Of a stretch of 64,000 nt of DNA, positions 5,989-40,762 are shown piece after piece. The stretch is from Stictocephala bisonia (Eukaryota; Arthropoda; Insecta; Hemiptera; Membracidae). The first letter of the stretch is position 1. Each line of letters starts with the position of its first letter. The notes beneath the pieces were generated by a model, which saw only the letters and a list, made by a program, of their open reading frames with translations, had not been told where the DNA came from and did no database searches. A program made the position numbers and the translations under genes. The stretch lies in the NCBI GenBank assembly GCA_035578905.1, contig JAQJVL010002601.1:1-64000 (forward strand). Reading direction: 5' to 3'.

Positions 5989-5990
<2 letters not shown>

Positions 5991-16650: not shown

Positions 16651-16656
16651 CACATT
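16651..16656. repeat. 6-bp target duplication, left copy
   Basis: cacatt directly abuts the palindrome tip at 16657; the same cacatt stands at 40757-40762. In the interrupted Helitron frame the six bases belong to codons of the C-x-x-C zinc finger, and removing the insert plus one copy restores frame. Confidence 0.93.
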
Positions 16657-17009
16657 AGTAGTGTAAAACGCGGGTTCTGGGAGACCTTTTGACCTCTGTT
16701 ATCAGTGTTATCACCACGTGTTGACCCCAGAGGTCAACTTTACTATTGTTTACAACTGATAATCAGCAAGGTCGTTGACCTTTCATTGATAATCACCACG
16801 TGGTGACCTTGAAGGTCAAGTTTACTACGAGCACGTGGACCCCCCGCGACGTTGTCGTAGGTCAGTGTTGTTTTGGTGTGACGTCATGCCGTTTTCGCGC
16901 TCTTTTTTCTGTCAGTAGTACACACATACTATTGTTTACTACAAGCACGTGGACCCCCCGCGATGACGTTGTCCTAGGTCAGTGTTGTTTTGGTGTGACG
17001 TCACGCCGT
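16657..17009 (+). repeat. left subterminal repeats with E-box and CRE palindromes
   Basis: Two direct copies of a 72-75-bp block lie at 16821-16892 and 16935-17009, each holding GCACGTGG and a perfect TGACGTCA. Outside them are two related blocks with ATCACCACGTG followed by GACC/GGTCA (about 16698-16736 and 16787-16820). The mirror set lies at 40404-40756. Such repeated palindromes near the tips look like protein-binding sites. Confidence 0.7.
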
Positions 17010-17052
17010 ATTTATTAAAATTAATTGTATTTATTTGAAGCTGTGGCAAAAA

Positions 17053-17133
17053 GTGTCGAAGACCGGTGCCGGGATCGATCCTAGAACCTTCCGTTTGTGA
17101 AACGGAGTCGATACCACCGCAGCACAGTGACAC
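17053..17133 (-). repeat. tRNA-Val-like module, left arm
   Basis: Read on the minus strand, an 81-nt stretch contains a 5-bp stem TCCGT/ACGGA around the loop TTCACAA (anticodon position CAC) and a B-box-like GATCGATCC at the right distance. The acceptor and T stems do not pair well, so it is not a functional tRNA gene but a tRNA-derived piece such as a SINE head. The identical copy is at 40280-40360 on the plus strand. Confidence 0.35.
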
Positions 17134-17204
17134 ACCCGAGAGGGTAACGTAAGTAGCGGCAGAAGAACGTGTGTGACGTCCGCCGCCGCCTCGAGCCAGA
17201 TGCA

Positions 17205-18310
17205 TTTATACTATATGAAATGTATATATTTTTTTTCTCCCAATAATTCGTATTTAATATAGTATTACTGTCGAAAAAAAAAAAAACAATTCAGTTTCTC
17301 TTTATACTATATAAAATGTACCAACTGTTTTTTTTTTTTCACAGTGTTACCAACTCGCACGATTAATTGCCAAAAAAAAAATATATGTCAGTGCTACCAA
17401 CTCACACGATTTATTACATTATACTATAATAAATACATATACGATTATTAAATTATACTATATTAAATACAAACGCGTTTTTTCGGTGTTACAGTAATAT
17501 TAATTTAAATTCGTTATCCTTTTACGTTAAAACTATAATAAATACATATACGATTATTAAATTATACTATATTAAATACAAACGCGTTAATACATACGTT
17601 AAAACTGGTCGTTAAGTATTAGGAGAACAGAACTTGGTAAGAACTCTGAACTCGACCATTGGCGCAATAATTTGTATTTAATATAGTATTAATTTGTTCT
17701 GACCATTTAAACCAGATGTAAAAAAAAATCTGTTGGTTTGTCGTCTGCTAGTACCAGCTGATGTGATTCGCTTCGCTTACGCCGAGCCAGATGCATTAGT
17801 ACTATATAAAATGTATTTTTCTAATAATTCGTATTTAATATAGTATTAGTTTGTTCAAACAAAATCGGTTTTTCTTTATATTATATAAAATGTACCAACT
17901 GTTTTTTCACAGTGTTGCTAACTCACACGATTATTTGCATTATACTATATAAAATACATATATATATGATTTTTTTCTCTTTTTTAATAAATACAAATGC
18001 GTTTTTCGGTGTTACAGTAATATTATTTTACCTTGTTTTCCTTCACATATAATGTATATAGCCAACTTATGCTTTCATTCGTAGTATACTATAGTAAATC
18101 TGTGTACTATAAAAAGTGCATCGATATTTATTCTTTGTCACGTTATAATATAATAATTGTTATGACGATAAATTTAAACAGATTAAAAAGGATTCTGGTT
18201 TTTCTGTGTACATATTTTATTTCAATATTATACTTATATACTATATGAAGTACATTGTTCATAATAAATCACTATTTTCGTTGTACTATAATAAATGCAA
18301 TTAATTTTTA
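17205..18310. repeat. cluster of a 17-bp motif, left arm
   Basis: About 16 copies of TATACTATATNAAATNC, in both orientations, lie in 1.1 kb (for example near 17210, 17253, 17303, 17429, 17454, 17563, 17671, 17798, 17832, 17940, 18080, 18235, 18279). Some are followed by aaacgcgtt. The sequence between copies is not conserved, so the motif itself seems to be the repeated object. The mirror cluster is at about 39103-40208. No gene lies in this stretch. Confidence 0.7.
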
Positions 18311-18482
18311 TATATAAATCAGTTAGAATATCTTTGAAACAGCTAACACATTTATATTTATTTATTTGTATTACAATAATAAATGTATATTTGTTAATAT
18401 GTATTAATTTAAGTTAAATTTTTATGTTTTAATACATTTGAGTATTAGGAGAGCAAAGACTGGTAGGAGTTATCAATGTTAC

Positions 18483-18606
18483 AGTTGCCGCCTGCGGCAT
18501 ACAAAGTGTCACTATCGAATCAGCGCGACCCGGCGACCTCTCCGTAAGATAGTCCGACTGCCTCGCGAACTGATTATGTGACTGCTGCTAATTTCTGCTA
18601 GCCTGA
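18483..18606 (-). repeat. GC-rich tRNA-like island, left arm
   Basis: An isolated GC-rich stretch in very AT-rich DNA. Read on the minus strand it contains GTCGGACTATCTTACGGAG followed by AGGTCGCCGGGTCGCG, reminiscent of a tRNA anticodon arm and B-box. I cannot fold a proper tRNA. The mirror copy is at about 38807-38930. Confidence 0.3.
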
Positions 18607-19047
18607 TACTTTGTTTTTCATTGCATGTTGTTCGTATTCCATATTTAAGTGGTTTTTTCCATATATTTAGCAGATGTATAGAAAATAAAAAGCATATTTT
18701 ATTTAATAATTAATTTAGTATTTAAAAATCCTAAGGTAATATACTATTCTATATTTTTGTAATGACATAAGTAACACAATATTTAAATTCTGTTATGGGA
18801 TAAGTTATAGTAATATTTAATTAATTATTTAAAAATCGTAAGGAGAAGTTGTATTGCAGATATTTTTGAAGTAATAAGTCGGACAATATTTAAATGTTAT
18901 TTAAGAATAAAGTATAATAATGTCGATTATTAAATACTGAAAACTCTATAAAAAATACTGTCTTTTTTAAAACCAACTAATGTATTTGTATGGTATGAAA
19001 TTGTCCAAGTCCAATTTTGCTGATGCAATGTTTCATCATGTGGACTT

Positions 19048-19545
19048 GTGGTAGTAAGACAATGGTAAGACAGATATAAAAATTCATATAATTCAATAAA
19101 AATCTGCAAAGAACGGAACTTCATCTGTACATACATGTATCTCAACAACAAAAACCAAAGTTAAATCAATTGGTAAATATTTGTAAGAATGTTTATTTTT
19201 AATATATGTGGTAGTGAGGCAGATATAAAAATTCATATTATTCAATAAAAATCTGCAAAGAGCGGAAACTTCATCTGTACATACATGTATCTCAACAACA
19301 ACAACCAAAGTTAAATCAATTGGTAAATATTTGTAAGAATGTTTATTTTTAATATATGTGGTAGTGAGGCAGATATAAAAATTTATATAAGTCAATAAAA
19401 ATCTGCAAAGAGCGGAAACTTCATCTGTACATACATGTATCTCAACAACAACAACCAAAGTTAAATCAATTGGTAAATATTTGTAAGAATGTTTATTTTT
19501 AATATATGTGGTAGTGAGGCAGATATAAAATTCATATAAAAATTC
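19048..19545 (-). repeat. 150-bp tandem repeat, three copies (left arm)
   Basis: Anchors tcatctgtacatacatgtat at 19121, 19271 and 19421 give a period of exactly 150 bp. Two variants alternate (differing around the aataa/gactt and tttttg/ttgttg positions), so the higher-order unit is 300 bp. Because 150 is a multiple of three, a spurious long frame runs through it. The right arm has five copies. Confidence 0.9.
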
Positions 19546-20360
19546 GTTTTAATTTCAACAAATATCACAAACACGTATTGAAAAAATCGAACTTTCAAAT
19601 AATTTTAAAAAAAAACTTGTGACCGATTCATCACGAATAATTTATTTAAGTAAGGTCAAGATAACTGCATTATTATATGTTTTGGTTTTAAATAAGATAT
19701 ATTAAACGTTTATCGCAATAAAAAGTTATACCTTGACACTGATTTAATCATTAAATAAAAACTAAACTCATTGGCTCACTTAGAACGGGGGAAAAAACAA
19801 TATAAAAATGGAATAATACAATTTAGATGTTAAATTCAACATAAATTTCATTTCAGATATGTAAAATTATGAGTTAAGGAGTTCAATTATTATTCCCTCA
19901 CATGTTAGTTAAAACAATCGAATAATATTGAATTACGAGCCATATTTAGACATATGTAATATTACAATATGTAGCATTTATTTCAGATTTCCATTAGGAT
20001 CTTACACATAAGAGCCTTACGTAAAATTTAAATCCAATATGTTAAACACATTAGAGATTACAGTTATGTAAATATTAAATGGACAAAAATGTTTAATTTC
20101 TTCATGAAAGGATCTTCATACATGTCCAACTATTATAATATTCCTGAGAGAAACGATTAATTATAAATGGCACTTTAAGTTAATAACATGGTTTTTCCTA
20201 TTTTGTAAAGATAAATTCTCTTATTAACAAATTAAGTAAATAAAAAAACAATTCTATGAATCCATTAATAACTGTGTAGTGTATTAAATGTTGCATATTA
20301 TTTTGACAATTTTATAATAATAATTGCCTTTTCTTATAATTCCGTATGTTGAGTAAGGAT
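19546..20360. other. AT-rich arm sequence without a gene
   Basis: Apart from a diverged copy (about 19980-20360) of the 1.1-kb module described at 21361-23130, nothing is recognised. Confidence 0.4.
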
Positions 20361-20364
20361 GAGA

Positions 20365-20600
20365 ACTGAGTATCAGGCTTGTCAATTAGTTGAAAATTAG
20401 ACCAATAATACGTGTTTTTGATTCAACTCTATGTCCCTTAATTTCACTGGTTGTTAGACTTTAAATGAAATGTCCGTTCTATGAAACAGTCAAACTCCGT
20501 TAGCAACAATATTACATTGGTTATCCATGCTCATACTACTCACATTCACCTTAGAATACGTTCAATTTTGTGCTGCCTTCTCATATCTAAGAATAATACT
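20365..20600 (+). repeat. dispersed repeat, copy inside the left arm
   Basis: Related to 9410-9640 outside the element over about 235 bp. The mirror copy lies near 36510-36752 on the opposite strand. It is more AT-rich than the outside copy. It was either captured by the element or inserted before the palindrome formed. Confidence 0.6.
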
Positions 20601-21360
20601 TTATATTGTTTTCTCTTAAAATGAGCCGTGTGAGTAAATACTATAATGGATGTTATGTTTAAATAATTTGTATAACATAGGGTATACCAAATCAACCGTT
20701 TAAGTATATACTTCTTTTGTTTACATATCTTCTATATTCGGTATAGTTTCATTTCTTATTAGTATAATGCAAATAAATGCAAGTCTGTGGCATTGATGAA
20801 AATAAAAGAAATATAGATTAATAATTAAGCTGACTATGTGATAGAACGGTTTCGGTTCAAGTGGGGTCAAGTGATATGATAGCACACTCGAACTAGAAGT
20901 CTAAACTAAATATACCAATTATATTAACTTTGAAACCTAAGTAAATCGGACAAAAAGGTCATATATGAGTAACTAAATTAATAAAAATATGTGTTTTTAA
21001 ATTAAATTGATTTTCAATTACGTTCATTCTAGTTTTATGTAATTAAATTTTAGTTTTTCATGAACATTTTCTGCGTGATAAACATTGCCAATAAATGACT
21101 AAAACACCAATGTTTTAATAGTTAACTATTCTGAATTTTTTACATTTGAGTTAACAAATACTATGATTAGTCGTTTAAGAGCTTTATATCAAGACCTATT
21201 CTCTACTATCGTATATTTACTTAACAGTAATATAAAATACTGTATTTATAAGATATAACATGATTTTACAGTTATATTTACATTTTTTTAATAACTAACA
21301 AGTAACTGGGTGTATGTTTAGTTACTTTCTATATTTGTGAATTAATATAAGATATCTAAG

Positions 21361-23130
21361 TCACATAAATTTATAAATCCATCGATTAATTTTAAATGAC
21401 CAACTAAATTAGTTTGGGATAGAAAATGAAGGTACTATACAGATGATACATTTCTGAGATCTCTATTAGGATGTTATACATAAGAGCTTTAAATAAAATT
21501 TTAGTCTAATCTGCTTCACATATTGGATCTTGCAGTTCTGTAAATCTAGACATTAAATGAACGAAACATTTTTTTTATTTCTCAATGAAAGGATCCTCAT
21601 ACGTATTCAACTACTTTATTAAAACTTAGCGAAACGATTTAAATATGCATGACAATCAGTGTAAAGCAGGTTTTTTCCTATTTTGTAAAGATAATTGGAC
21701 AGATAAAGCAACAATTTATAATTCCGTTAACTACATAGTGAATTGAATTTTACATATTATGTTAATAGTTTATAAAATAGTCTTTTGCTTATGACTGATT
21801 TTAAGTGTATAATTTATTTTGGTAAACATGATAAAACTAGGGATAAAATGTATATTACAAAACATATATGACCAACTTAGTTACATTGAACTGATGTCAG
21901 TCCATTTATAAATATACACTTATGTAAATTACAAACTAAAATGACAGACTAGAATATACAAGCCTTGTAAATATAATACACTTCTGAGATATCCATTATC
22001 AGCAAGGTTGCAACTTGCTTTATAGTGCTTTACATATTATTGTTTAATAATCTGTATATCTGATCAAATATTAAATATTTTGAATGGACAAAAACGTTCA
22101 TATACAACAATTATAAAAGGACAATCATTCTAAGACTTCATTTTTTATAAATACATATATTTATTTCAAATAATCTTTTTTACGATACCGCACAATGGTG
22201 TATATTAGACTAATGGATCATGAATGATCAGACAATACGCCGTTGTATCCTATGGTATATTGGTATAAAGGTGTCTTCTCTTGGAAAGTCAGTTTATCCA
22301 AACAAGGCTGTCCATTACCACCTATGTAATATGACAATTAAAACCTTGTATACATATAATATAAAATTGATTTATTTCCATTGAAACTATCATATGCATA
22401 GTACTTGCTGTTCAAGTACAGTTTTATGTTATCTAAGTTACAATAATCCACCTCAATGACCTCATAAATGTGAATTAATACAAGACATCAACATCGCAAA
22501 AATGTATGAATCAATCGATTTCTTTTAAATGGCCAACTAAATTAGTTTAGGATAAAAAATGAAGGTATTATACAAATGATACACTTCTTATATCACCATT
22601 AGGATACTATGCATAAGAGCTTCAAATAAAATGTAATGCTTTACATATCAGAGCTTGCAGTTCTGTAAATATAACTAGATGTTAAATGAACGAAACATTT
22701 TTTATTTCTAAAAGAGGAGATCTTCATACGTATTCAACTACTCTATTAAAACTTAGCGAAATGATTTAAATATGAATGGCACTCAGTGTAAAGCAGGTTT
22801 TTTCCTATTTTGTAAAGATAATCAAACGGATAAAACAACAATTTTATAATTCCGTTAATAACTACATAGTGAATTGAATGTTACATAGTATGCTACTTGT
22901 ATAATTTATTTCGGTAAACATGACAAAACAAATACGACCAACTTAGTTAAATTGGTCAGTCCATTTATAAATATACTTTCATGTAAATTACAAACTAAAA
23001 CGACTTAGTAGACTAGAATATACAAGCCTTGTAAATATAATACACTTCTGAGATATCCATTATGAGCTTTAACTTACTTTATAGTGTTTCACATATTATT
23101 GTTTATTAGTCTGTATATCAAATATTAAAT
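21361..23130. repeat. degenerate 1.1-kb tandem modules, left arm
   Basis: The phrases atttctgagatctctattagga..cataagagcttt, cttgcagttctgtaaat, ttttttcctattttgtaaag and ctgagatatccatta recur in the same order about 1.06-1.13 kb apart (21361-22090 and 22490-23130), with a third partial copy at about 19980-20360. Neither copy has a sustained open frame. The mirror copies lie in the right arm at about 33980-35750. Confidence 0.6.
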
Positions 23131-23381
23131 ATTTTGAACGTACAAAAACGTTCACTTTTCAAATATCGGATATAAATTCATAAACATCAATTATATCATA
23201 CTGAGCCAAGCTATTAAAATTAAAGTTCATCAATGTTCTTTTTTTAACTGTAAATATAATTTATATAATGAGATATTTGGGTAAATAAAACAATATACGA
23301 GATGTTCTATGCAAGAAATATATCTTATTCTTTATTTATTTACACATTTTTCACATCTTTATTTACAAAAATTGTCCTTGA

Positions 23382-23732
23382 TCAGAATCTTTGAACTTGT
23401 GATTCTTCAACTCCTTTAAGCTCGGCCATTAGTCTGTTGTAGAGTTCTTCCCCACACTCTTTAGGACCGATGCTTTCAAATAATTTAATAAATGAGTATT
23501 CGTAATTTCTAACTTTGTTGCAAACGCTACAATCAGAACCACAAGCAGCTGTCTCTGTACGGTCTCTCTTAAATTTTATATTTTCTACATCCTCGACCAG
23601 TTCAGCCATTCTTTGAAGTTTTTCTTCAGCTTCTGGACTCCAGCTAGGTTTTGCAAATCTCAGCTCAAACATGACCATCAGCAAGTTTGCATACATTGTA
23701 CCTGTAGTGATAGTGTTGTTACCCGGATACAT
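23382..23732 (-). CDS. unknown 116-residue protein, left-arm copy
   Basis: The frame encodes a soluble-looking protein starting MYPGNNTITTGTMYANLL, with a charged helical middle (SPEAEEKLQRMAELVEDVE), a C-x3-C-x2-C cluster (CGSDCSVC) that could bind a metal or form disulphides, and the ending ESQVQRF. I chose the first ATG (23730-23732). The open frame continues 36 codons further upstream without an ATG, and a polypyrimidine-TTTTCAG sequence just before GTTATATAAAG would be a plausible splice acceptor, so an upstream exon may exist. It is the only frame in the arms whose composition looks like a real protein. An AATAAA lies just downstream (near 23336). I do not recognise the family and assign no function. 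Confidence 0.5.
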   Translation of the reverse strand: MYPGNNTITTGTMYANLLMVMFELRFAKPSWSPEAEEKLQRMAELVEDVENIKFKRDRTETAACGSDCSVCNKVRNYEYSFIKLFESIGPKECGEELYNRLMAELKGVEESQVQRF

Positions 23733-24189
23733 CTGGGTCGGAGTGTGATAAAGTGTCTGAACAATACCTTTATATAACCTGAAAACTGTATTGAAAAAGT
23801 GGTGGGTGGATAGTAACAGATTTATATAAAGTGTTGTCAAAATCGAACGGTTATGCTTAAATAGGATCCAGAAGTTGTTATTTTATCTTTAAGATACTGT
23901 TTCATATAAACAATTCACTCTTAACAAGTGTGATAATATATAACTCACATATGTTTACTATAGTACAAACAATTTTTAATAAATTAATAATTCTGGTTTT
24001 TGAAGCTAAAAATACATATTTGAATGAAAATAATTTACGTTAAATTTCAATACTCATAACCTATATAAAAAGTCATGTGATATTTTTGTTATTTTTAGTA
24101 TTATAAAAATTAAAGAATATGAAACTAAATCAACTGCCATGATGCTATTAAAAGAATCTCAGCCATATTACAGTTGTATTATTTTTTGT

Positions 24190-26240
24190 CTTTAGTTAGC
24201 ATACATTTTTATTTATTTTTTACCCCAAAAAAACTTGATATAATTTGTTTGTAACTTGGTTACTTTTAGTTGACAAGGCTCATACATTGTAAAAACTGTA
24301 CATTGTGAAGCCAAATAAATGAATTTGAATGTGAAGTGCAATTGAACATTCAATACACTCCCTTTTATCCAAATAATGAACTTTATACTTTAGGTAACAC
24401 TAAAAAACCTTATACTTTACGAACAAAACTATACATTGTTTATCTATGTAAATACAAATGTACATAACTAGATTTTATATTCGTATATCACATTCAAGTA
24501 TGTAGGATTAACATAATGAACTTGGGTATAGGGCATTTATTTTATGTTACCTATTTACGTTGTATTCATGTTATTTATATTAATATGGAATAGAAACTGT
24601 AATTTGGATAATAATTTATTTCTCAAATACAGTGAATTATTAGCATTGCTATTAAGTAACACTCAAATAATAATATGGAATGCAAACTATAAGTTACTTT
24701 GAAAGCTAATTCCCATTCACTTTGTATTATTACTATTGATATTAAGAGGCGTTCAAAATAATTCATATGACGTTTGTATTAATAAAACCATATGTCTATT
24801 TAAACTAGCATTGTTTCCTCTTAAATATAGTTTTCCATGCCAAGGAAAATAACAAATATGTTTTAATTGTCTATGTTACAATAGACATGTGTTGTTGTGT
24901 AAAATTTAAAATAAATACTACCACTTTAAAACGTTCAACTGTTTATTCTCCTCCAACTTAATTGTTGTACATTACAAGTTATGTGTTCTGAATAAGTATT
25001 TTATAGATAAAAAACATTTATTGAAAAAAGTTTCGTTGAATCACAGAAATATAATTACGTAATATGTTTAATGTTTAAGGCTTGGATATAAATGAAACAT
25101 ATTACTTATAGTAAAATTTCTTTATTCAAAACAATACAGTTTAAAACAATCGTTATAAACTCAATTTGTCCTACTTTATACATTTTTTTCTTCAGTTAGT
25201 ATACATTTTTATTTGTTTTTTCCCTCAAAAACTAGATATGATTTGTTTGCAACATGGTTAGTTTTGAATGTTAAGTGCAGTTGACCATTCAATATACTCC
25301 CTTTCATCCAAATAATGAACTTTAGTTTAAGTAACACTAAAAAATCATATACTGTACGAACAAAACTATACTTAGTCTAGGTGTGTAAATACAAATGTAC
25401 ATAACTAGACTTTATATTCGTATAATACATTTAAGTATGTAGAATTAACATAATGAACTTAGGTATAGGGTATTTATTTTATTTTACGATACCTATTTAC
25501 GTTGTATTCATGTTATTTATGTATTTAATTTGGAATGGAAACTGTAATTTAGATAATAATTTATTTCTCATACACAGGGAATTATTAGCATTGATATTAA
25601 GTAACACTCAAATTATAATATGGAATGCAAACTATAAATTACTTTCAAAGCTAATTCCCATTCACTTTATGTTATTACAATTGCTATTGAGAGGCATTCA
25701 AGATAATTCATATGACGTTTGTATAAATGAAACCATATGTCTATTTTAAACTAGCCAGGTCAGAGGATTAAGGTAATGAAGAAAGCAGATGCCGTTCAAA
25801 GACAAATACAGCACACTAATTGTAATTTATTACAAATGAAGTAACCAAAACCACAATTGTTAAATGTAATGTTTGTTGTTGCGTTAAATAAATGAGAATG
25901 GTAATTTTGCACTTTATTGTTTTCTCTTAAATATATTTTTCCATGCCAAGGAAAATAACAAATATGTTTAAAATGTCTATGGTACAATAGAAATGTGTTG
26001 TGTAATATTTAAAATAAATACTATCACTTTAAAACGTTCAACTGTTTATTCTCCTCCAACAAAATTTTTTTACATTACAAATTATATGTTCTGAATAAGT
26101 AATTTATAGATATAGAACATTTATTTAGAAAAGTTTCGTTGAATCACAGAAATATTATTAAGTATAATTTAATACTGATATGTTTAATGTTTAAGGCTTG
26201 GAGATATATGAAACATATTACTAATAGTAAAATTTCTTTA
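24190..26240. repeat. two diverged 1-kb copies near the centre, left arm
   Basis: 24190-25160 and 25190-26240 are diverged tandem copies (shared landmarks: catacatttttattt, the cattcaatacactccctttt phrase, atgaacttnggtatagg, the ttctcctccaac phrase). The second copy has a 98-codon frame at 25453-25749, but the first copy is full of stops in the same place, so coding is doubtful. Copy one also carries a LINE-like 3' tail, gccaaataaatgaatttgaa, at about 24310-24330. The right-arm mirror copies lie at about 27130-29180. Confidence 0.6.
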
Positions 26241-26520
26241 TTCAAAATATTAGTATAGTAAAACAATCGTTATAAACTCAATTTAGCCTACTTTAAATGT
26301 ACGTTTAGTTTAAAATATAATGCATAGTTACATTACGTATTGTATATTAAATTTTTACTATTTAAATTAAAGAATATCACAAAGACAGGTAGAGTAGCTT
26401 ACGGTAACTTTTTAGAACAAATTCATTGAATTCGAACTGTACACAAACACATATAAAGGGGCTTATATTACTAAGTATACTGTATAATTTATAATTTTTA
26501 TATCGAATATTTAATGTTAA

Positions 26521-26854
26521 ACAGGAAATCCAATTTGTATTGTACTCATGCTATAATAAATCAATTTCAGCATTAGCCTCTTACTTTATCTATGGTTATC
26601 TTGACTTATTAGTACGGGTCATCGTGCTAAGGTTAACTATTTTGCATTCACACTAGTTATTAGAAACAATCTTATTTTATTAACAATATTGTTAGGCTCG
26701 TTTGTGTGTCCTTTTCCTTTACATACATATTCGTAAATAATTCTTCATATTTTTTGTTCCTATAACTGATACGTTATAGGTTCTAAATTGACTAATAAGA
26801 CAGCGCATGAGATATAAAGTACCATTACAATTTTATAATTTAATTTAATATTAT
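26521..26854. other. unpaired central loop of the palindrome
   Basis: The only part of the element, apart from later insertions, that has no mirror copy. It holds no open frame and no tandem repeat, and is AT-rich with slightly higher complexity than the arms. Confidence 0.8.
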
Positions 26855-29518: not shown

Positions 29519-30853
29519 TGTACCGGGTCTTGGACCGGTACAGTTTCGTTTTTTCGTTGTTGTCTGCCAGGCTGCCTGAGATTCGCTTTTGCCCGGCGAT
29601 TTGCGTACTTTGGTAGCCGTTGGCCCAGTTCCGTTTCGTTCCGTGTTCCTGCAGCTTCGGTCAGGTTGGCCTGTCTTCAGTTGTCTTGTGCTGCCTGCAG
29701 AATCTAGTCATGTTCAGATAGACACTCTAAAACTCCAGGGTCCTTGAGTAGGACGTTTCTGCCCTCGGCCTGCCGTCCGGGGATTGTCTACCATCTGCAC
29801 TGCTAGCCTGGCCTGAGGACCATGTTGGAGTCTGGAGTCGCCAGCTACCCGCTCTAGATCTGTGGTGGTAGAAGTCTTCTGTCCTCAGGTCAGTGTGTTC
29901 CTTTTATTTCCCGGCGGCTGAGCTGAGGGGTTTTGGATGGCCTTCAAAGAAAGAAGAAAAAAAACATGTTTGTGGAACTTTATGTGGCCTAGGCCTAAAC
30001 TGCTAAACTTGGACAGTGATTTCATACCACAGCCATTGGGGACTTATATATTTTTTATTAAAGGGAAAAACCTTTTTAAAATACACAAAGATTTTGTTGA
30101 TGTTAATATTTATTTATTTATATTTATTGTTATTTAGTTTAATTAGTTTATTTGGTTGTTACATTTGTTTAGATTTTTATATTTGTTAGGTCCCCATTGT
30201 TAAATCATGTTATTATTTATTCAGATGTTTAGGCCTAGTTATTGTTATTTATTTTTTGGGTTACGTGTATTAGGGGTGTTTGGAAGTGAATTTTTACTCG
30301 AACGGTACCGTGTTATATTTTCTTTTAAATTATTTAATTTTTAAACTTTCACCAAAAGGGGATTATTGTTCTTTTGCTTAACTTTTAATTCGGAGCTGCC
30401 CAGGGATTCCGGCTTACTCCCTGGCCCGGTGGAATCAAGGGATGCGGGCCAAATTGCCGGTGTAATTGGTGATACCAAAAATTTTTTAATTTTCTTCACT
30501 TTTAGTCGGGGCCTATTAAATTTTTCTTACGTTTTGGGGTGTCTCAGGCTAAACTGCAGATAGGCCATACAGTTTGTTAATTGTAGTTTTGGTATTTGTA
30601 GCGTTTGTTATTATTGTGTGTATCTTGTTAATTTAGTGTTTATGGTTATTGATTTAAGTGCTAATTTACTGTTTTGGCCTTCTGCCGTTTTGATTAATTA
30701 ATTATTTTGATTTTTTGGTAATAAACTAGTTTTGCTCAGCTGCCGAGTGTTATTTTGACCCTCCAACTGCCACCCGTGATCCCATCGCTCGACTTGTTTT
30801 GAGCCATCCCCCAGTTGGCACGCTTTCCAGCTTTGGTGGGGGGATGGGTCTCA
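29519..30853 (+). repeat. 5' LTR
   Basis: Starts TG, ends CA, 1335 bp. GC-rich at both ends and AT-rich in the middle. Short frames inside it (for example at 29937 and 30366) recur identically in the other LTR and are not genes. Confidence 0.92.
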
Positions 30854-30855
30854 AT

Positions 30856-30868
30856 TGGTAGCAGAGCG
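30856..30868 (+). other. primer-binding site
   Basis: TGGTAGCAGAGCG begins 2 nt after the 5' LTR. TGG is complementary to the CCA tail of a tRNA, as expected for the start of minus-strand synthesis. The tRNA species is not determined. Confidence 0.65.
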
Positions 30869-30875
30869 TGGTTGC

Positions 30876-30877
<2 letters not shown>

Positions 30878-30920
<43 letters not shown>

Positions 30921-31079
30921 CACTTGGTTGTTGACGGTGGGTGTTTGCCTGTTAGTAGGTCATGGTTGGCCGACCTACCGTCAAGGTGTCTTGGTAATAC
31001 GTAGAAAAAAAAAAAGAAACAAATAAATAATTATTTAAAAAGAAAAACAATTAAAAACCAAATAAATCATTTAACTTTG

Positions 31080-31129
<50 letters not shown>
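30878..31129 (+). repeat. two long internal poly(A) tracts
   Basis: Runs of 40 A (30878-30917) and 46 A (31084-31129) sit between the primer-binding site and the gag-like frame, separated by about 165 bp. Internal poly(A) of this length is unusual in an LTR element; the assembled lengths may be inexact. Confidence 0.8.
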
Positions 31130-31132
<3 letters not shown>

Positions 31133-31279
31133 AGGCAATCCGCTTGGTTACTTTGTTGAATGGGTTTCATGGGTGGATTGGAGTGGTCGGCAGTGGCTCG
31201 GTAGGCTGAGGGTTTAGTTCGTCTTGGACCCTGGAGTTGTCGTTTTTGTGTGTATTGTTGAGAATTTTTGTTTTGCGAG

Positions 31280-31900
31280 ATGGCCTATCTGCAGAATGTT
31301 GCGCTCCTAGTCAAGGAGGAGTTGATTTTCGAATTGAGGTCGCGGGGTGTGACTCCGGAAGGGGATGTTTTGAATCTCCGGAGGTTGCTGCGGGAGCAGT
31401 TGTCCGCGGGTACGGCGGTGGATTGGTCTGACTTGCTGGAGGTTGGTGATGAGTTGGGGATTTGTAAACGGAAGGTGGAAGATTGGGAAGGGGTGTTAGA
31501 GGATTTGCAGTTTGAACCTCCAGTAGGTCGTGACCGGGCCTGCCGCCTTGCACGTTTGGGGCATCTGCTTGCCCGTTTAAGGCTGGTCAACCGGGCGCCG
31601 GGGTTGGAACCGTCGGATAGGACGTGGATCCTGGAGAGTTTGTCTAGGCTGGAAGAGATTTTTCAGGCACTCTCCGGTTCCACGACTCCTACGGGTCTGG
31701 GTCAGCGGCCTACTTTCGCGCTTTCACCTAACGTGTCGAGGCCGCAGGCTGAGACACCGGCTCTCACTGTGCCTGAGGTTCCTTCTGAGCCTGCAGGCGT
31801 TTCTGTTGAGGTTGCTTGTGGTTCGGCTCCAGCTGCCGTTCCTACTACTTCTTTGGGTTCCCTGAGGTACCGAGGGTTCTCCCCTGCCTGGGTGTGTTGA
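31280..31900 (+). CDS. gag-like N-terminal fragment of the LTR element
   Basis: 206 codons from an ATG at 31280 (MAYLQNVALLVKEELIFELR...), ending 17 bp before the 3' LTR. The first 40 residues (helix, RSRGVTPEGDVLNLRRLLRE) resemble the SAP-like start of insect retroelement Gag proteins; the rest becomes proline-, serine- and alanine-rich. The frame ends before any zinc knuckle, so it would be a truncated Gag. GC content is clearly higher than in the surrounding palindrome. Structural help for packaging in trans is plausible, but this is inference. It could also be a non-gag frame of a LARD-like element. Confidence 0.55.
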   Translation: MAYLQNVALLVKEELIFELRSRGVTPEGDVLNLRRLLREQLSAGTAVDWSDLLEVGDELGICKRKVEDWEGVLEDLQFEPPVGRDRACRLARLGHLLARLRLVNRAPGLEPSDRTWILESLSRLEEIFQALSGSTTPTGLGQRPTFALSPNVSRPQAETPALTVPEVPSEPAGVSVEVACGSAPAAVPTTSLGSLRYRGFSPAWVC

Positions 31901-31907
31901 GGTTTGC

Positions 31908-31916
31908 AGAGGGAGG
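31908..31916 (+). other. polypurine tract
   Basis: AGAGGGAGG one base before the 3' LTR, the usual plus-strand primer position. Confidence 0.7.
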
Positions 31917-31917
31917 T

Positions 31918-33252
31918 TGTACCGGGTCTTGGACCGGTACAGTTTCGTTTTTTCGTTGTTGTCTGCCAGGCTGCCTGAGATTCGCTTTTGCCCGGCGATT
32001 TGCGTACTTTGGTAGCCGTTGGCCCAGTTCCGTTTCGTTCCGTGTTCCTGCAGCTTCGGTCAGGTTGGCCTGTCTTCAGTTGTCTTGTGCTGCCTGCAGA
32101 ATCTAGTCATGTTCAGATAGACACTCTAAAACTCCAGGGTCCTTGAGTAGGACGTTTCTGCCCTCGGCCTGCCGTCCGGGGATTGTCTACCATCTGCACT
32201 GCTAGCCTGGCCTGAGGACCATGTTGGAGTCTGGAGTCGCCAGCTACCCGCTCTAGATCTGTGGTGGTAGAAGTCTTCTGTCCTCAGGTCAGTGTGTTCC
32301 TTTTATTTCCCGGCGGCTGAGCTGAGGGGTTTTGGATGGCCTTCAAAGAAAGAAGAAAAAAAACATGTTTGTGGAACTTTATGTGGCCTAGGCCTAAACT
32401 GCTAAACTTGGACAGTGATTTCATACCACAGCCATTGGGGACTTATATATTTTTTATTAAAGGGAAAAACCTTTTTAAAATACACAAAGATTTTGTTGAT
32501 GTTAATATTTATTTATTTATATTTATTGTTATTTAGTTTAATTAGTTTATTTGGTTGTTACATTTGTTTAGATTTTTATATTTGTTAGGTCCCCATTGTT
32601 AAATCATGTTATTATTTATTCAGATGTTTAGGCCTAGTTATTGTTATTTATTTTTTGGGTTACGTGTATTAGGGGTGTTTGGAAGTGAATTTTTACTCGA
32701 ACGGTACCGTGTTATATTTTCTTTTAAATTATTTAATTTTTAAACTTTCACCAAAAGGGGATTATTGTTCTTTTGCTTAACTTTTAATTCGGAGCTGCCC
32801 AGGGATTCCGGCTTACTCCCTGGCCCGGTGGAATCAAGGGATGCGGGCCAAATTGCCGGTGTAATTGGTGATACCAAAAATTTTTTAATTTTCTTCACTT
32901 TTAGTCGGGGCCTATTAAATTTTTCTTACGTTTTGGGGTGTCTCAGGCTAAACTGCAGATAGGCCATACAGTTTGTTAATTGTAGTTTTGGTATTTGTAG
33001 CGTTTGTTATTATTGTGTGTATCTTGTTAATTTAGTGTTTATGGTTATTGATTTAAGTGCTAATTTACTGTTTTGGCCTTCTGCCGTTTTGATTAATTAA
33101 TTATTTTGATTTTTTGGTAATAAACTAGTTTTGCTCAGCTGCCGAGTGTTATTTTGACCCTCCAACTGCCACCCGTGATCCCATCGCTCGACTTGTTTTG
33201 AGCCATCCCCCAGTTGGCACGCTTTCCAGCTTTGGTGGGGGGATGGGTCTCA
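31918..33252 (+). repeat. 3' LTR
   Basis: 1335 bp, same ends as the 5' LTR and no difference found in the parts compared. Followed by the target duplication ctat. Confidence 0.92.
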
Positions 33253-33384
33253 CTATTTAAGCATAACCGTTCGATTTTGACAACATTTTATATACATCTG
33301 TTACTATCCACCCACCACTTTTTCAATACAGTTTTCAGGTTATATAAAGGTATTGTTCAGACACTTTATCACACTCCGACCCAG

Positions 33385-33735
33385 ATGTATCCGGGTAACA
33401 ACACTATCACTACAGGTACAATGTATGCAAACTTGCTGATGGTTATGTTTGAGCTGAGATTTGCAAAACCTAGCTGGAGTCCAGAAGCTGAAGAAAAACT
33501 TCAAAGAATGGCTGAACTGGTTGAGGATGTAGAAAATATAAAATTTAAGAGAGACCGTACAGAGACAGCTGCTTGTGGTTCTGATTGTAGCGTTTGCAAC
33601 AAAGTTAGAAATTACGAATACTCATTTATTAAATTATTTGAAAGCATCGGTCCTAAAGAGTGTGGGGAAGAACTCTACAACAGACTAATGGCCGAGCTTA
33701 AAGGAGTTAAAGAATCACAAGTTCAAAGATTCTGA
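33385..33735 (+). CDS. unknown 116-residue protein, right-arm copy
   Basis: Mirror copy of the frame at 23382-23732 with the same ATG (MYPGNNTITTG...), the same CGSDCSVC cluster and the same stop. It differs by at least one residue near the end (GVKESQ here, GVEESQ in the left arm). The LTR element ends about 130 bp upstream of this ATG and removes whatever upstream exon or promoter the copy had, so the left-arm copy is the more likely functional one. An AATAAAG follows the stop. Family unknown. Confidence 0.5.
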   Translation: MYPGNNTITTGTMYANLLMVMFELRFAKPSWSPEAEEKLQRMAELVEDVENIKFKRDRTETAACGSDCSVCNKVRNYEYSFIKLFESIGPKECGEELYNRLMAELKGVKESQVQRF

Positions 33736-33979
33736 TCAAGGACAATTTTTGTAAATAAAGATGTGAAAAATGTGTAAATAAATAAAGAATAAGATATATT
33801 TCTTGCATAGAACATCTCGTATATTGTTTTATTTACCCAAATATCTCATTATATAAATTATATTTACAGTTAAAAAAAGAACATTGATGAACTTTAATTT
33901 TAATAGCTTGGCTCAGTATGATATAATTGATGTTTATGAATTTATATCCGATATTTGAAAAGTGAACGTTTTTGTACGT

Positions 33980-36900
33980 TCAAAATATTTAATATTTGAT
34001 ATACAGACTAATAAACAATAATATGTGAAACACTATAAAGTAAGTTAAAGCTCATAATGGATATCTCAGAAGTGTATTATATTTACAAGGCTTGTATATT
34101 CTAGTCTACTAAGTCGTTTTAGTTTGTAATTTACATGAAAGTATATTTATAAATGGACTGACCAATTTAACTAAGTTGGTCGTATTTGTTTTGTCATGTT
34201 TACCGAAATAAATTATACAAGTAGCATACTATGTAACATTCAATTCACTATGTAGTTATTAACGGAATTATAAAATTGTTGTTTTATCCGTTTGATTATC
34301 TTTACAAAATAGGAAAAAACCTGCTTTACACTGAGCGCCATTCATATTTAAATCATTTCGCTAAGTTTTAATAGAGTAGTTGAATACGTATGAAGATCTC
34401 CTCTTTTAGAAATAAAAAATGTTTCGTTCATTTAATATCTAGTTATATTTACAGAACTGCAAGCTCTGATATGTAAAGCATTACATTTTATTTGAAGCTC
34501 TTATGCATAGTATCCTAATGGTGATATAAGAAGTGTATCATTTGTATAATACCTTCATTTTTTATCCTAAACTAATTTAGTTGGCCATTTAAAAGAAATC
34601 GATTGATTCATACATTTTTGCGATGTTGATGTCTTGTATTAATTCACATTTATGAGGTCATTGAGGTGGATTATTGTAACTTAGATAACATAAAACTGTA
34701 CTTGAACAGCAAGTACTATGCATATGATAGTTTCAATGGAAATAAATCAATTTTATATTATATGTATACAAGGTTTTAATTGTCATATTACATAGGTGGT
34801 AATGGACAGCCTTGTTTGGATAAACTGACTTTCCAAGAGAAGACACCTTTATACCAATATACCATAGGATACAACGGCGTATTGTCTGATCATTCATGAT
34901 CCATTAGTCTAATATACACCATTGTGCGGTATCGTAAAAAAGATTATTTGAAATAAATATATGTATTTATAAAAAATGAAGTCTTAGAATGATTGTCCTT
35001 TTATAATTGTTGTATATGAACGTTTTTGTCCATTCAAAATATTTAATATTTGATCAGATATACAGATTATTAAACAATAATATGTAAAGCACTATAAAGC
35101 AAGTTGCAACCTTGCTGATAATGGATATCTCAGAAGTGTATTATATTTACAAGGCTTGTATATTCTAGTCTGTCATTTTAGTTTGTAATTTACATAAGTG
35201 TATATTTATAAATGGACTGACATCAGTTCAATGTAACTAAGTTGGTCATATATGTTTTGTAATATACATTTTATCCCTAGTTTTATCATGTTTACCAAAA
35301 TAAATTATACACTTAAAATCAGTCATAAGCAAAAGACTATTCTATAAACTATTAACATAATATGTAAAATTCAATTCACTATGTAGTTAACGGAATTATA
35401 AATTGTTGCTTTATCTGTCCAATTATCTTTACAAAATAGGAAAAAACCTGCTTTACACTGATTGTCATGCATATTTAAATCGTTTCGCTAAGTTTTAATA
35501 AAGTAGTTGAATACGTATGAGGATCCTTTCATTGAGAAATAAAAAAAATGTTTCGTTCATTTAATGTCTAGATTTACAGAACTGCAAGATCCAATATGTG
35601 AAGCAGATTAGACTAAAATTTTATTTAAAGCTCTTATGTATAACATCCTAATAGAGATCTCAGAAATGTATCATCTGTATAGTACCTTCATTTTCTATCC
35701 CAAACTAATTTAGTTGGTCATTTAAAATTAATCGATGGATTTATAAATTTATGTGACTTAGATATCTTATATTAATTCACAAATATAGAAAGTAACTAAA
35801 CATACACCCAGTTACTTGTTAGTTATTAAAAAAATGTAAATATAACTGTAAAATCATGTTATATCTTATAAATACAGTATTTTATATTACTGTTAAGTAA
35901 ATATACGATAGTAGAGAATAGGTCTTGATATAAAGCTCTTAAACGACTAATCATAGTATTTGTTAACTCAAATGTAAAAAATTCAGAATAGTTAACTATT
36001 AAAACATTGGTGTTTTAGTCATTTATTGGCAATGTTTATCACGCAGAAAATGTTCATGAAAAACTAAAATTTAATTACATAAAACTAGAATGAACGTAAT
36101 TGAAAATCAATTTAATTTAAAAACACATATTTTTATTAATTTAGTTACTCATATATGACCTTTTTGTCCGATTTACTTAGGTTTCAAAGTTAATATAATT
36201 GGTATATTTAGTTTAGACTTCTAGTTCGAGTGTGCTATCATATCACTTGACCCCACTTGAACCGAAACCGTTCTATCACATAGTCAGCTTAATTATTAAT
36301 CTATATTTCTTTTATTTTCATCAATGCCACAGACTTGCATTTATTTGCATTATACTAATAAGAAATGAAACTATACCGAATATAGAAGATATGTAAACAA
36401 AAGAAGTATATACTTAAACGGTTGATTTGGTATACCCTATGTTATACAAATTATTTAAACATAACATCCATTATAGTATTTACTCACACGGCTCATTTTA
36501 AGAGAAAACAATATAAAGTATTATTCTTAGATATGAGAAGGCAGCACAAAATTGAACGTATTCTAAGGTGAATGTGAGTAGTATGAGCATGGATAACCAA
36601 TGTAATATTGTTGCTAACGGAGTTTGACTGTTTCATAGAACGGACATTTCATTTAAAGTCTAACAACCAGTGAAATTAAGGGACATAGAGTTGAATCAAA
36701 AACACGTATTATTGGTCTAATTTTCAACTAATTGACAAGCCTGATACTCAGTTCTCATCCTTACTCAACATACGGAATTATAAGAAAAGGCAATTATTAT
36801 TATAAAATTGTCAAAATAATATGCAACATTTAATACACTACACAGTTATTAATGGATTCATAGAATTGTTTTTTTATTTACTTAATTTGTTAATAAGAGA

Positions 36901-37570
36901 ATTTATCTTTACAAAATAGGAAAAACCATGTTATTAACTTAAAGTGCCATTTATAATTAATCGTTTCTCTCAGGAATATTATAATAGTTGGACATGTATG
37001 AAGATCCTTTCATGAAGAAATTAAACATTTTTGTCCATTTAATATTTACATAACTGTAATCTCTAATGTGTTTAACATATTGGATTTAAATTTTACGTAA
37101 GGCTCTTATGTGTAAGATCCTAATGGAAATCTGAAATAAATGCTACATATTGTAATATTACATATGTCTAAATATGGCTCGTAATTCAAAATTATTCGAT
37201 TGTTTTAACTAACGTGTGAGGGAATAATAATTGAACTCCTTAACTCATAATTTTACATATCTGAAATGAAATTTATGTTGAATTTAACATCTATATTGTA
37301 TTATTCCATTTTTATATTGTTTTTCCCCCGTTCTAAGTGAGCCAATGAGTTTAGTTTTTATTTAATGATTAAATCAGTGTCAAGGTATAACTTTTTATTG
37401 CGATAAACGTTTAATATATCTTATTTAAAACCAAAACATATAATAATGCAGTTATCTTGACCTTACTTAAATAAATTATTCGTGATGAATCGGTCACAAG
37501 TTTTTTTTTTAAATTATTTGAAAGTTCGATTTTTTCAATACGTGTTTGTGATATTTGTTGAAATTAAAAC
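33980..37570. other. right-arm mirror of 19540-23130
   Basis: Reverse complement of the left arm: the 1.1-kb modules at about 33980-35750, and the dispersed repeat at about 36510-36752. No additional feature is present. Confidence 0.8.
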
Positions 37571-38365
37571 GAATTTTTATATGAATTTTATATCTGCCTC
37601 ACTACCACATATATTAAAAATAAACATTCTTACAAATATTTACCAATTGATTTAACTTTGGTTGTTGTTGTTGAGATACATGTATGTACAGATGAAGTTT
37701 CCGCTCTTTGCAGATTTTTATTGACTTATATAAATTTTTATATCTGCCTCACTACCACATATATTAAAAATAAACATTCTTACAAATATTTACCAATTGA
37801 TTTAACTTTGGTTGTTGTTGTTGAGATACATGTATGTACAGATGAAGTTTCCGCTCTTTGCAGATTTTTATTGAATAATATGAATTTTTATATCTGCCTC
37901 ACTACCACATATATTAAAAATAAACATTCTTACAAATATTTACCAATTGATTTAACTTTGGTTTTTGTTGTTGAGATACATGTATGTACAGATGAAGTTT
38001 CCGCTCTTTGCAGATTTTTATTGACTTATATAAATTTTTATATCTGCCTCACTACCACATATATTAAAAATAAACATTCTTACAAATATTTACCAATTGA
38101 TTTAACTTTGGTTGTTGTTGTTGAGATACATGTATGTACAGATGAAGTTTCCGCTCTTTGCAGATTTTTATTGAATAATATGAATTTTTATATCTGCCTC
38201 ACTACCACATATATTAAAAATAAACATTCTTACAAATATTTACCAATTGATTTAACTTTGGTTTTTGTTGTTGAGATACATGTATGTACAGATGAAGTTC
38301 CGTTCTTTGCAGATTTTTATTGAATTATATGAATTTTTATATCTGTCTTACCATTGTCTTACTAC
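37570..38365 (+). repeat. 150-bp tandem repeat, five copies (right arm)
   Basis: The same array as at 19048-19545 with one additional 300-bp dimer. Anchors lie at 37681, 37831, 37981, 38131 and 38281. A 221-codon frame with 50-residue repeats runs through it, but it starts at TTG and is explained by the unit length. Confidence 0.9.
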
Positions 38366-39102
38366 CACAAGTCCACATGATGAAACATTGCATCAGCAAA
38401 ATTGGACTTGGACAATTTCATACCATACAAATACATTAGTTGGTTTTAAAAAAGACAGTATTTTTTATAGAGTTTTCAGTATTTAATAATCGACATTATT
38501 ATACTTTATTCTTAAATAACATTTAAATATTGTCCGACTTATTACTTCAAAAATATCTGCAATACAACTTCTCCTTACGATTTTTAAATAATTAATTAAA
38601 TATTACTATAACTTATCCCATAACAGAATTTAAATATTGTGTTACTTATGTCATTACAAAAATATAGAATAGTATATTACCTTAGGATTTTTAAATACTA
38701 AATTAATTATTAAATAAAATATGCTTTTTATTTTCTATACATCTGCTAAATATATGGAAAAAACCACTTAAATATGGAATACGAACAACATGCAATGAAA
38801 AACAAAGTATCAGGCTAGCAGAAATTAGCAGCAGTCACATAATCAGTTCGCGAGGCAGTCGGACTATCTTACGGAGAGGTCGCCGGGTCGCGCTGATTCG
38901 ATAGTGACACTTTGTATGCCGCAGGCGGCAACTGTAACATTGATAACTCCTACCAGTCTTTGCTCTCCTAATACTCAAATGTATTAAAACATAAAAATTT
39001 AACTTAAATTAATACATATTAACAAATATACATTTATTATTGTAATACAAATAAATAAATATAAATGTGTTAGCTGTTTCAAAGATATTCTAACTGATTT
39101 AT

Positions 39103-40208
39103 ATATAAAAATTAATTGCATTTATTATAGTACAACGAAAATAGTGATTTATTATGAACAATGTACTTCATATAGTATATAAGTATAATATTGAAATAAA
39201 ATATGTACACAGAAAAACCAGAATCCTTTTTAATCTGTTTAAATTTATCGTCATAACAATTATTATATTATAACGTGACAAAGAATAAATATCGATGCAC
39301 TTTTTATAGTACACAGATTTACTATAGTATACTACGAATGAAAGCATAAGTTGGCTATATACATTATATGTGAAGGAAAACAAGGTAAAATAATATTACT
39401 GTAACACCGAAAAACGCATTTGTATTTATTAAAAAAGAGAAAAAAATCATATATATATGTATTTTATATAGTATAATGCAAATAATCGTGTGAGTTAGCA
39501 ACACTGTGAAAAAACAGTTGGTACATTTTATATAATATAAAGAAAAACCGATTTTGTTTGAACAAACTAATACTATATTAAATACGAATTATTAGAAAAA
39601 TACATTTTATATAGTACTAATGCATCTGGCTCGGCGTAAGCGAAGCGAATCACATCAGCTGGTACTAGCAGACGACAAACCAACAGATTTTTTTTACATC
39701 TGGTTTAAATGGTCATAACAAATTAATACTATATTAAATACAAATTATTGCGCCAATGGTCGAGTTCAGAGTTCTTACCAAGTTCTGTTCTCCTAATACT
39801 TAACGACCAGTTTTAACGTATGTATTAACGCGTTTGTATTTAATATAGTATAATTTAATAATCGTATATGTATTTATTATAGTTTTAACGTAAAAGGATA
39901 ACGAATTTAAATTAATATTACTGTAACACCGAAAAAACGCGTTTGTATTTAATATAGTATAATTTAATAATCGTATATGTATTTATTATAGTATAATGTA
40001 ATAAATCGTGTGAGTTGGTAGCACTGACATATATTTTTTTTTTGGCAATTAATCGTGCGAGTTGGTAACACTGTGAAAAAAAAAAAACAGTTGGTACATT
40101 TTATATAGTATAAAGAGAAACTGAATTGTTTTTTTTTTTCGACAGTAATACTATATTAAATACGAATTATTGGGAGAAAAAAAATATATACATTTCATAT
40201 AGTATAAA
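39103..40208. repeat. cluster of a 17-bp motif, right arm
   Basis: Mirror of the motif cluster at 17205-18310. Confidence 0.7.
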
Positions 40209-40279
40209 TGCATCTGGCTCGAGGCGGCGGCGGACGTCACACACGTTCTTCTGCCGCTACTTACGTTACCCTCTCGGGT

Positions 40280-40360
40280 GTGTCACTGTGCTGCGGTGGT
40301 ATCGACTCCGTTTCACAAACGGAAGGTTCTAGGATCGATCCCGGCACCGGTCTTCGACAC
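40280..40360 (+). repeat. tRNA-Val-like module, right arm
   Basis: Mirror of 17053-17133. Here it reads on the plus strand: anticodon-like arm TCCGT-TTCACAA-ACGGA, B-box-like GATCGATCC, outer GTGTC/GACAC complement. Confidence 0.35.
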
Positions 40361-40403
40361 TTTTTGCCACAGCTTCAAATAAATACAATTAATTTTAATA
40401 AAT

Positions 40404-40756
40404 ACGGCGTGACGTCACACCAAAACAACACTGACCTAGGACAACGTCATCGCGGGGGGTCCACGTGCTTGTAGTAAACAATAGTATGTGTGTACTACTG
40501 ACAGAAAAAAGAGCGCGAAAACGGCATGACGTCACACCAAAACAACACTGACCTACGACAACGTCGCGGGGGGTCCACGTGCTCGTAGTAAACTTGACCT
40601 TCAAGGTCACCACGTGGTGATTATCAATGAAAGGTCAACGACCTTGCTGATTATCAGTTGTAAACAATAGTAAAGTTGACCTCTGGGGTCAACACGTGGT
40701 GATAACACTGATAACAGAGGTCAAAAGGTCTCCCAGAACCCGCGTTTTACACTACT
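40404..40756 (-). repeat. right subterminal repeats
   Basis: Mirror of 16657-17009, with the two TGACGTCA-containing blocks at 40404-40478 and 40521-40592. Identical to the left tip over the outermost 180 bp compared. Confidence 0.7.
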
Positions 40757-40762
40757 CACATT
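40757..40762. repeat. 6-bp target duplication, right copy
   Basis: cacatt, matching 16651-16656. Confidence 0.93.

Follow-up and report, generated by a model that had tools for sequence, protein, structure and literature searches.

Polintons, or Mavericks, and the insect adintoviruses are the described systems closest to the element reported here. In vertebrate Mavericks, as far as the accessible part of one survey goes, the commonest end motif is (AGT)2//(ACT)2, the target site duplications (TSDs) are 6 bp long and the terminal inverted repeats (TIRs) span 46-1,447 bp (PMC8097293). The DNA that we analysed, hereafter the window, consists of 64,000 nt of the Stictocephala bisonia contig JAQJVL010002601.1 (positions 1-64,000, forward strand). 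At 16657-40756 it contains an element that shares with Polintons/Mavericks and insect adintoviruses the (AGT)2//(ACT)2 tips, the 6-bp TSD and terminal repeats of about 820 bp; unlike a Polinton/Maverick, it is inverted over its whole length, and no replication or integration gene was found in it. We propose, with a probability of roughly 0.75, that it is a non-autonomous palindromic derivative of a Polinton/Maverick (adintovirus-like), mobilised in trans, and that such palindromes formed by fold-back more than once.

The element is a 24.1-kb palindrome, its left arm aligning to the reverse complement of its right arm. Its parts are given below; other elements of the same genome are designated by C and a number, and LTR stands for long terminal repeat.

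16657..26521, plus strand: left arm, 9,865 bp, from the arm alignment
26522..26853, no strand: loop, 332 bp, with homologues in the loops of C146, C4987 and C219 and, in part, in that of C3164
26854..40756, minus strand: right arm, 13,903 bp including an LTR element and two extra array units
16651..16656, no strand: left copy of the TSD CACATT, from the sequence
40757..40762, no strand: right copy of the TSD CACATT, from the sequence
16657..17479, plus strand: left terminal region, common to the TIRs of full-length Polintons and 99.2% identical to the left TIR of C2178
39934..40756, minus strand: mirror copy of the terminal region, inner border approximate
19071..19539, no strand: 150-bp tandem array of the left arm, 3.1 copies
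37577..38345, no strand: 150-bp tandem array of the right arm, 5.1 copies

The initial annotation had described a near-perfect 24-kb palindrome with AG...CT tips, a 6-bp duplication cacatt and two insertions accounting for the excess of the right arm. All of this is borne out: the tips read AGTAGT...ACTACT, CACATT stands at both ends and the two insertions are an LTR retrotransposon and two 150-bp array units. Its measures need a small correction, from arms of 9,864 bp and a loop of 334 bp to 9,865 and 332 bp. Once the LTR element and the array units are set aside, 44 substitutions and 7 indel events remain between the arms; six of these substitutions sit in the tandem array, where the register of the alignment decides them. 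The tip sequence AGTAGTGTAAAACGCGGG, searched with up to three mismatches, occurs in the window at the two tips only, the number expected by chance being 0.

The palindrome interrupts a Helitron gene:

12515..16654, minus strand: interrupted Helitron Rep/helicase open reading frame (ORF), the target (Pfam Helitron_like_N 4.5e-56, PIF1 3.9e-69)
40763..40901, minus strand: the Helitron frame on the far side of the insertion, 46 residues up to a stop upstream

When the flanks are fused with a single CACATT, the Helitron frame stays open over at least 931 aa and continues for 46 aa past the junction, as had been claimed from the sequence. The palindromic unit thus sits between the halves of one former site.

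The outer 501 bp were searched against the 1.68-Gb host genome, and the best 40 of 1,021 candidates scored as matches; because each genome search scored the best 40 candidates, copy numbers are to be read as minima. In the genome, a 22-base tip pattern that includes one ambiguous base has 84 exact occurrences, the reversed-pattern control none. These tips form 20 complete inverted pairs of 6.1-27.1 kb, all with matching 6-bp TSDs except C4987 (19/20), which we classed as nine full-length Polintons (type A), six members of the window's lineage, one fresh palindrome (C301), one hybrid (C219) and three others. The complete pairs take up 40 of the 84 tips; seven of the remaining 44 were sampled, two of which (C6018, C8608) match no reference, and the rest, L005 and L006 included, were left out. 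The three others are short or divergent, again with these tips and matching TSDs: C1410 (L061/L062; 6.1 kb) resembles a diverged type A that has lost its interior, in C314 (L057/L058) the left-type end is diverged, and C30 (L049/L050) has one end without a match past the tip. A phage search and an Rfam scan at gathering scores found nothing; viral contigs gave no match by tip, and by capsid protein two stretches fitted the pattern, neither of them a relative.

Type A elements are about 20 kb long (one is 27 kb) and carry the same tips as the window palindrome. Nine are complete: C176, C592, C2178 and C4720, which were examined in pieces, and C274, C377, C1631, C3058 and C4260, which were classed by their ends only. 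In C2178 (20,470 bp, TIR of about 0.8 kb, TSD AATGGT), long ORFs match the Pfam profiles of an integrase core (rve, 8.7e-11), a Pox_A32 packaging ATPase (6.3e-8), a double jelly-roll (DJR) capsid protein (1.8e-106) and a dUTPase (1e-41), along with a chromo match at 0.004, below the Pfam cut-off. Four ORFs of C176 match integrase, ATPase, capsid and endonuclease VII, as in C2178. A 1,263-aa PolB-like ORF of C2178 combines an endonuclease VII match with a YIDTD motif; its residues 500-1263 have 5,961 relatives among 7,989 candidates scored, including a DNA-directed DNA polymerase of Homalodisca liturata (58%) and the PolB of a Ladona dragonfly adintovirus (47%). The closest relative, unnamed, is 70% identical, and the two closest named ones come from Homalodisca and Macrosteles, both leafhoppers, which points to a probably hemipteran host. 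Pfam PF03175 has no match in the PolB-like ORFs of C2178 and C176, and is carried by some database relatives; a PDB search with PolB returned no match. Judged by these genes, type A is a Polinton. The Polinton identity given to the palindrome in the initial annotation is upheld by C2178, which combines the same tips with genes for PolB, integrase, ATPase, DJR capsid protein and dUTPase; it is also a copy with PolB and integrase of the kind that a genome search with these ends was suggested to find, and its integrase is of the Polinton type instead of another transposase class. In C592 (L021), three long minus-strand ORFs (357, 711 and 520 aa) lie at 1.4-6.2 kb of the element, in the interval that separates the left TIR from ORF1; these extra ORFs may be an inserted retrotransposon.

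The arms of the window palindrome retain pieces of such a Polinton:

22169..22448, minus strand: capsid relic (3' part of the Polinton major capsid protein gene) in the left arm, tblastn 80-81% identity in two pieces, E 1e-34, DNA 85-89%
34669..34948, plus strand: mirror of the capsid-gene relic in the right arm, placed by arm symmetry
23382..23672, minus strand: ORF1 (96 aa) in the left arm, in full-length Polintons the gene that comes first after the left TIR, 1 aa from C176
33445..33735, plus strand: mirror of ORF1 in the right arm, 2 aa from C176

ORF1 is intact in both arms; a protein search found no homologue for it and Pfam no match. When 18 ORFs of C2178, integrase and PolB included, were compared with the arms by tblastn, only ORF1 and the capsid protein were found, and a Pfam scan of the left arm and loop gave no match at cut-off in 23 of their 48 ORFs of at least 45 aa. 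The claim that the element holds no Polinton genes has to be corrected: no replication or integration gene was found, and each arm does have an intact ORF1 and a capsid relic. As neither a PolB nor an integrase gene was found in it, the element does not count as an autonomous Polinton. Over most of its length the arm matches nothing recognisable. The related palindrome C146 is the more legible one: the first 1.58 kb of its arm, counted from the tip, follow the right end of type A, past the 0.8-kb TIR; further in, a capsid-gene relic and then part of ORF1 lie in the order and orientation that they have in type A. The counterpart of the capsid relic in C2178 lies 8.7-9.1 kb from the right tip. 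The window arm has the same order, more decayed, with ORF1 whole and with out-of-order repeated TIR pieces in addition. As this order indicates, the half-unit is an eroded type A running from the right tip to near the left end. Since it reads inward from the right tip, the palindrome has two right ends, the left end having been lost at the centre. The outer 0.8 kb of the element are 96.6-99.2% identical to the left ends of four long-ORF elements, and only 1 of 560 positions differs from the left TIR of C2178; a single TIR column tells left from right ends, too few for tracing the ends. The features expected of a non-autonomous Polinton are thus all found: ends shared with full-length copies, an interior derived from the helper and several insertions.

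The palindromic form is itself an old lineage of at least six complete copies, five of them with their own matching TSD: the window element, C146 (arms of 9.3 kb), C3164 (8.3 kb), C113 (4.9 kb), C2510 (5.2 kb) and the disrupted C4987. Centre and loop are common to the window element, C146, C4987 and the hybrid C219, and in part to C3164; C219 and the window element are 98.9% identical across the loop, over 1,152 bp. Because the window element, C146 and C219 (C3164 partly) share centre and loop while their TSDs differ, the form must have been a palindrome already when it was copied and inserted. A de novo snap-back for each copy was rejected for the window element, C146 and C4987 on account of the common centre and loop.

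The two arms of each copy have also stayed alike. A search with an arm segment (best 40 of 1,008 candidates) found a converging plus/minus pair on 13 contigs. In these 13 palindromes, left and right arms differ by 0.24% on average (at most 0.79%), as against 1.92% (0.22-4.52%) between elements. In a tree, left and right are sisters in 10 of 13, and in an eleventh, C5372, both are identical to C113, which entered the distance and tree comparison as a single row. The same search turned up, at G000:C3361:50176-55531, five direct tandem copies of the arm segment with a period of about 1.1 kb, unlike the inverted pairs elsewhere. Four elements were also compared in 106 windows of 300 bp, of which 90 were comparable with one of the other three elements and 16 lacked a counterpart, either in the own opposite arm or in another of the elements. 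Over the 90, own arms are 99.5% alike and the best other element 96.0%; the own other arm is at least as close as the other elements in 80, and both arms have the same closest other element in 88. C113 illustrates this, both its arms following the window element at 1.2-2.7 kb and C146 at 3.3-4.5 kb. Since both arms have the same best relative in 88/90, exchange between these four copies is mirrored on both arms.

Two further elements bear on how such palindromes arise. C301 (18,227 bp, TSD AACGAT) consists of type A sequence, 97.8-99.9% identical to C176. Its positions 1-7602 correspond to type A positions 1-7594 counted from the right end, and its positions 7601-18227 run from 10632 back to 1 on the same count. 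C301 thus has two right ends, a 3.04-kb single-copy loop and a 2-bp microhomology at the turn. On this structure C301 is an independent second palindrome, of type A sequence; its architecture would be that given by self-priming of an unfinished strand, with the 3' end at either turn point. In the hybrid C219 (20,054 bp, TSD CAGTGT) a type A right half gives way to the old palindrome 220 bp short of the loop, and past the joint the sequence runs across the loop, along the other arm and out to the tip. The element nearest to C301 is C176 (0 differences in 1,490 positions of the loop), that nearest to C219 is C2178 (1/1,204, in one segment); as the parents differ, these are separate events. On type A, the two breakpoints are both near position 9,990, with about 10 nt between them, and for random positions the chance of a distance of 11 nt or less is about 0.001. 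A common breakpoint site is kept as a lead, because two events are few. The initial annotation had supposed a snap-back palindrome comparable to a defective genome. The fold-back architecture of C301 is as that idea predicted; the window element itself turned out to be a member of an old lineage and not a one-off.

The scheme that we propose for these structures has the following steps. Protein-primed strand-displacement synthesis would start at the right tip and leave the strand incomplete. The 3' end of this strand would fold back on itself and be extended to its own 5' end; alternatively, it would prime on another molecule and give a hybrid such as C219. The product would have two working tips, on which PolB and integrase provided in trans could act to replicate and integrate it. 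In later rounds the displaced palindromic strand would fold into a hairpin, whose repair or copying would keep the arms alike. Mobilisation in trans and a replicative rather than chromosomal origin are what we infer from the results above.

Several observations weigh against this proposal. The events that speak for recurrence are few, a single fresh palindrome (C301) and a single hybrid (C219), and in principle the C301 fold might have formed within the chromosome; moreover, the arms of C301 differ by about 1% (37 substitutions plus gaps, over 7.6 kb) though 1.49 kb of loop are identical to C176. C113 and C2510 have no match to the window element's centre. When simple distance is the measure, only 9 of the 13 palindromes have their own other arm as nearest sequence, and another element is closer than the own arm in 10 of the 90 comparable windows. 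The arm differences of C146 are mostly indels (32 indel events against 10 substitutions), possibly assembly noise. In the window element the divergence of the arms is patchy, unlike what a single snap-back shortly before insertion would leave, and of the 20 substitutions in one diverged block (see below), 12 show the left-arm state in the siblings, 6 the right-arm state and 2 both. Finally, the elements are known here as integrated sequence, from which transposition, an extrachromosomal form and dependence in trans are predicted.

The alternative that survives best is that the palindrome formed once and that ordinary chromosomal gene conversion from arm to arm, as in the palindromes of sex chromosomes, keeps the arms alike with no hairpin intermediate. 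The relevant features of the window are:

23868..24788, no strand: block of raised arm divergence, 20 of the 44 substitutions in 921 bp; mirror at 28587-29511, reaching the LTR insertion
29519..33252, plus strand: short LTR retrotransposon, in the right arm only, a later insertion, TSD CTAT

Conversion would account for the patchy divergence, since 35 of the 44 substitutions are found no more than 1 kb from a place where the arms differ in structure, against 19.9 expected. It also agrees with the polarisation of 38 of the 44 substitutions (the six array sites being excluded): the siblings share the left-arm state at 23, the right-arm state at 11, both at 3 and another base at 1, so that derived states are present in both arms, the diverged block included. 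Patchy homogenisation of this kind favours repair or conversion tracts over one final complete snap-back. Set against chromosomal conversion are the exchanges between copies, which run in parallel on both arms of the four elements examined, and, against a single formation, C301, which argues that palindromes form more than once. The LTR element gives a further, weak argument. Its LTRs (29519-30853 and 31918-33252, 1,335 bp each) are identical, and it looks young; at the background rate 3.6 differences are expected between them, and the probability of none is about 0.03. An identical pair within the diverged region is unlike what suppression of conversion around an old insertion would leave. 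The idea that the block reflects conversion suppressed by the LTR insertion was not accepted, because the LTRs are identical and the LTR-free left arm also has derived states in the block. The one ORF of this retrotransposon, at 31262-31900, was called gag-like by eye and had no match in a Pfam scan. All in all, we hold a single formation followed by conversion to be a real possibility, somewhat on the improbable side.

The palindrome might also be made within the chromosome: after a double-strand break in an inserted full-length Polinton, one TIR would invade the other and copy inward, and the ends would be joined at a microhomology, the original TSD being retained. This route would yield the features of C301 equally well, namely two right ends, a single-copy loop, a 2-bp microhomology and an intact TSD. 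It does not readily give the centre and loop that recur at different TSDs in the window element, C146 and C219 (and partly C3164), and the joint of type A with old palindrome between the matching TSDs of C219 would be harder to make in one chromosome; we consider it unlikely.

That we face an assembly fold-back, long inverted repeats being a known assembly artefact and 8 of the 84 tips lying within 1 kb of a contig start, was rejected as highly improbable: the arms differ by the LTR element, array copy number and 44 substitutions, which counts against such a fold-back, the borders of the palindrome coincide exactly with Polinton tips, next to a TSD and to flanking sequence that differs between the two sides, and C113, C146, C219 and C301 lie inside contigs of 1.1-2.3 Mb. 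Equally improbable, and rejected, is another transposon class (foldback, Tc1-mariner, MULE) that is Polinton-like at the tips only, for which the palindromic Tc1-mariner elements of 0.65-2.2 kb reported from a beetle, in the accessible part of that paper (PMC10849321), could be cited: the TSD is 6 bp and not TA, the outer 0.8 kb match four long-ORF elements, one of which encodes Polinton proteins including a Polinton-type integrase, and the arms carry Polinton relics.

Returning to fold-back with mobilisation in trans, we tentatively extend it, as a possibility that we would not call probable, to an inherited satellite lineage. The genetic unit would then be the half molecule, an arm of about 10 kb plus the loop, which forms a hairpin in each round so that changes in one arm are copied to the other; its length would be held near that of the helper, as if packaged in a capsid, and founders such as C301 would come from a preferred site of stalling or breakage in the middle of the helper. 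The three fullest old copies measure 17.7, 19.0 and 20.4 kb (the last without its LTR element) and type A 20.5 kb, which would fit packaging in the helper capsid; other copies of the lineage measure 13.0, 16.0 and 21.2 kb.

The rest of the window contains other mobile elements. On the minus strand, 46264-50838 holds a second, degenerate series of Helitron-like ORFs, with Helitron_like_N at 5.4e-60 in 48622-50838, the stretch that was scanned. At 51741-53054 there is a hAT-like transposase ORF with weak DUF4371 and Dimer_Tnp_hAT matches below cut-off, and at 59417-61797 there are piggyBac-like transposase ORFs (DDE_Tnp_1_7 1.5e-65 in 60099-61295), followed by a 63-bp minisatellite.

How do these palindromes compare with known systems? 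Foldback/Galileo elements of Drosophila have very long inverted repeats and are cut-and-paste transposons with no polymerase-encoding helper. Protein-primed linear genomes give molecules with the same end twice, as in the symmetric recombinants of adenovirus and the palindromic products of phi29 in vitro. Those products belong to virus stocks or the test tube, whereas the palindromes described here are integrated in a genome, and we know of no adenovirus- or phi29-type product that has become a germline mobile lineage. On adenovirus and protein-primed palindromes, the open-access literature offered no usable paper. To our knowledge, the replication of Polintons has been deduced from their gene content and hardly ever observed; integrated palindromes with helper fold-back junctions may record the end at which a strand started, the site where it stopped and the re-priming of its 3' end. 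As one genome holds a long-ORF helper, the fresh C301, the hybrid C219 and the old lineage, the model is directly testable. If true, it would clearly exemplify how a virus-like transposon of an animal can have a satellite, here one whose arms evolve in concert.

Titles and opening lines of abstracts in the open-access literature, the longer lists in part, mention no palindromic Polinton; in the accessible portions of two papers, the string 'palindrom' is absent (PMC8363768) and nothing to the point appears (PMC8790561). Palindromic non-autonomous Tc1-mariner elements of Callosobruchus maculatus have consensus lengths of 654-2,199 bp and are often inverted over their whole length, according to the part of the report that is accessible (PMC10849321). 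As far as that part goes, these are of the cut-and-paste class, whereas the Polinton palindromes are 13-24 kb long and would derive from a protein-primed replicator. In negative-strand RNA viruses, the generation of copy-back defective genomes is governed by a genomic signal, as stated in the accessible part of one study (PMC6504078). On that reading the likeness lies in the defective copy-back type, and the breakpoint of C301 and C219 would be comparable to the generation signal; the difference is that copy-back genomes are those of RNA viruses in infection, whereas the palindromes here are DNA and integrated in the genome. If the reading as an inherited satellite lineage is true, they would represent in DNA, fixed in a germline, what copy-back defective genomes are in RNA viruses.

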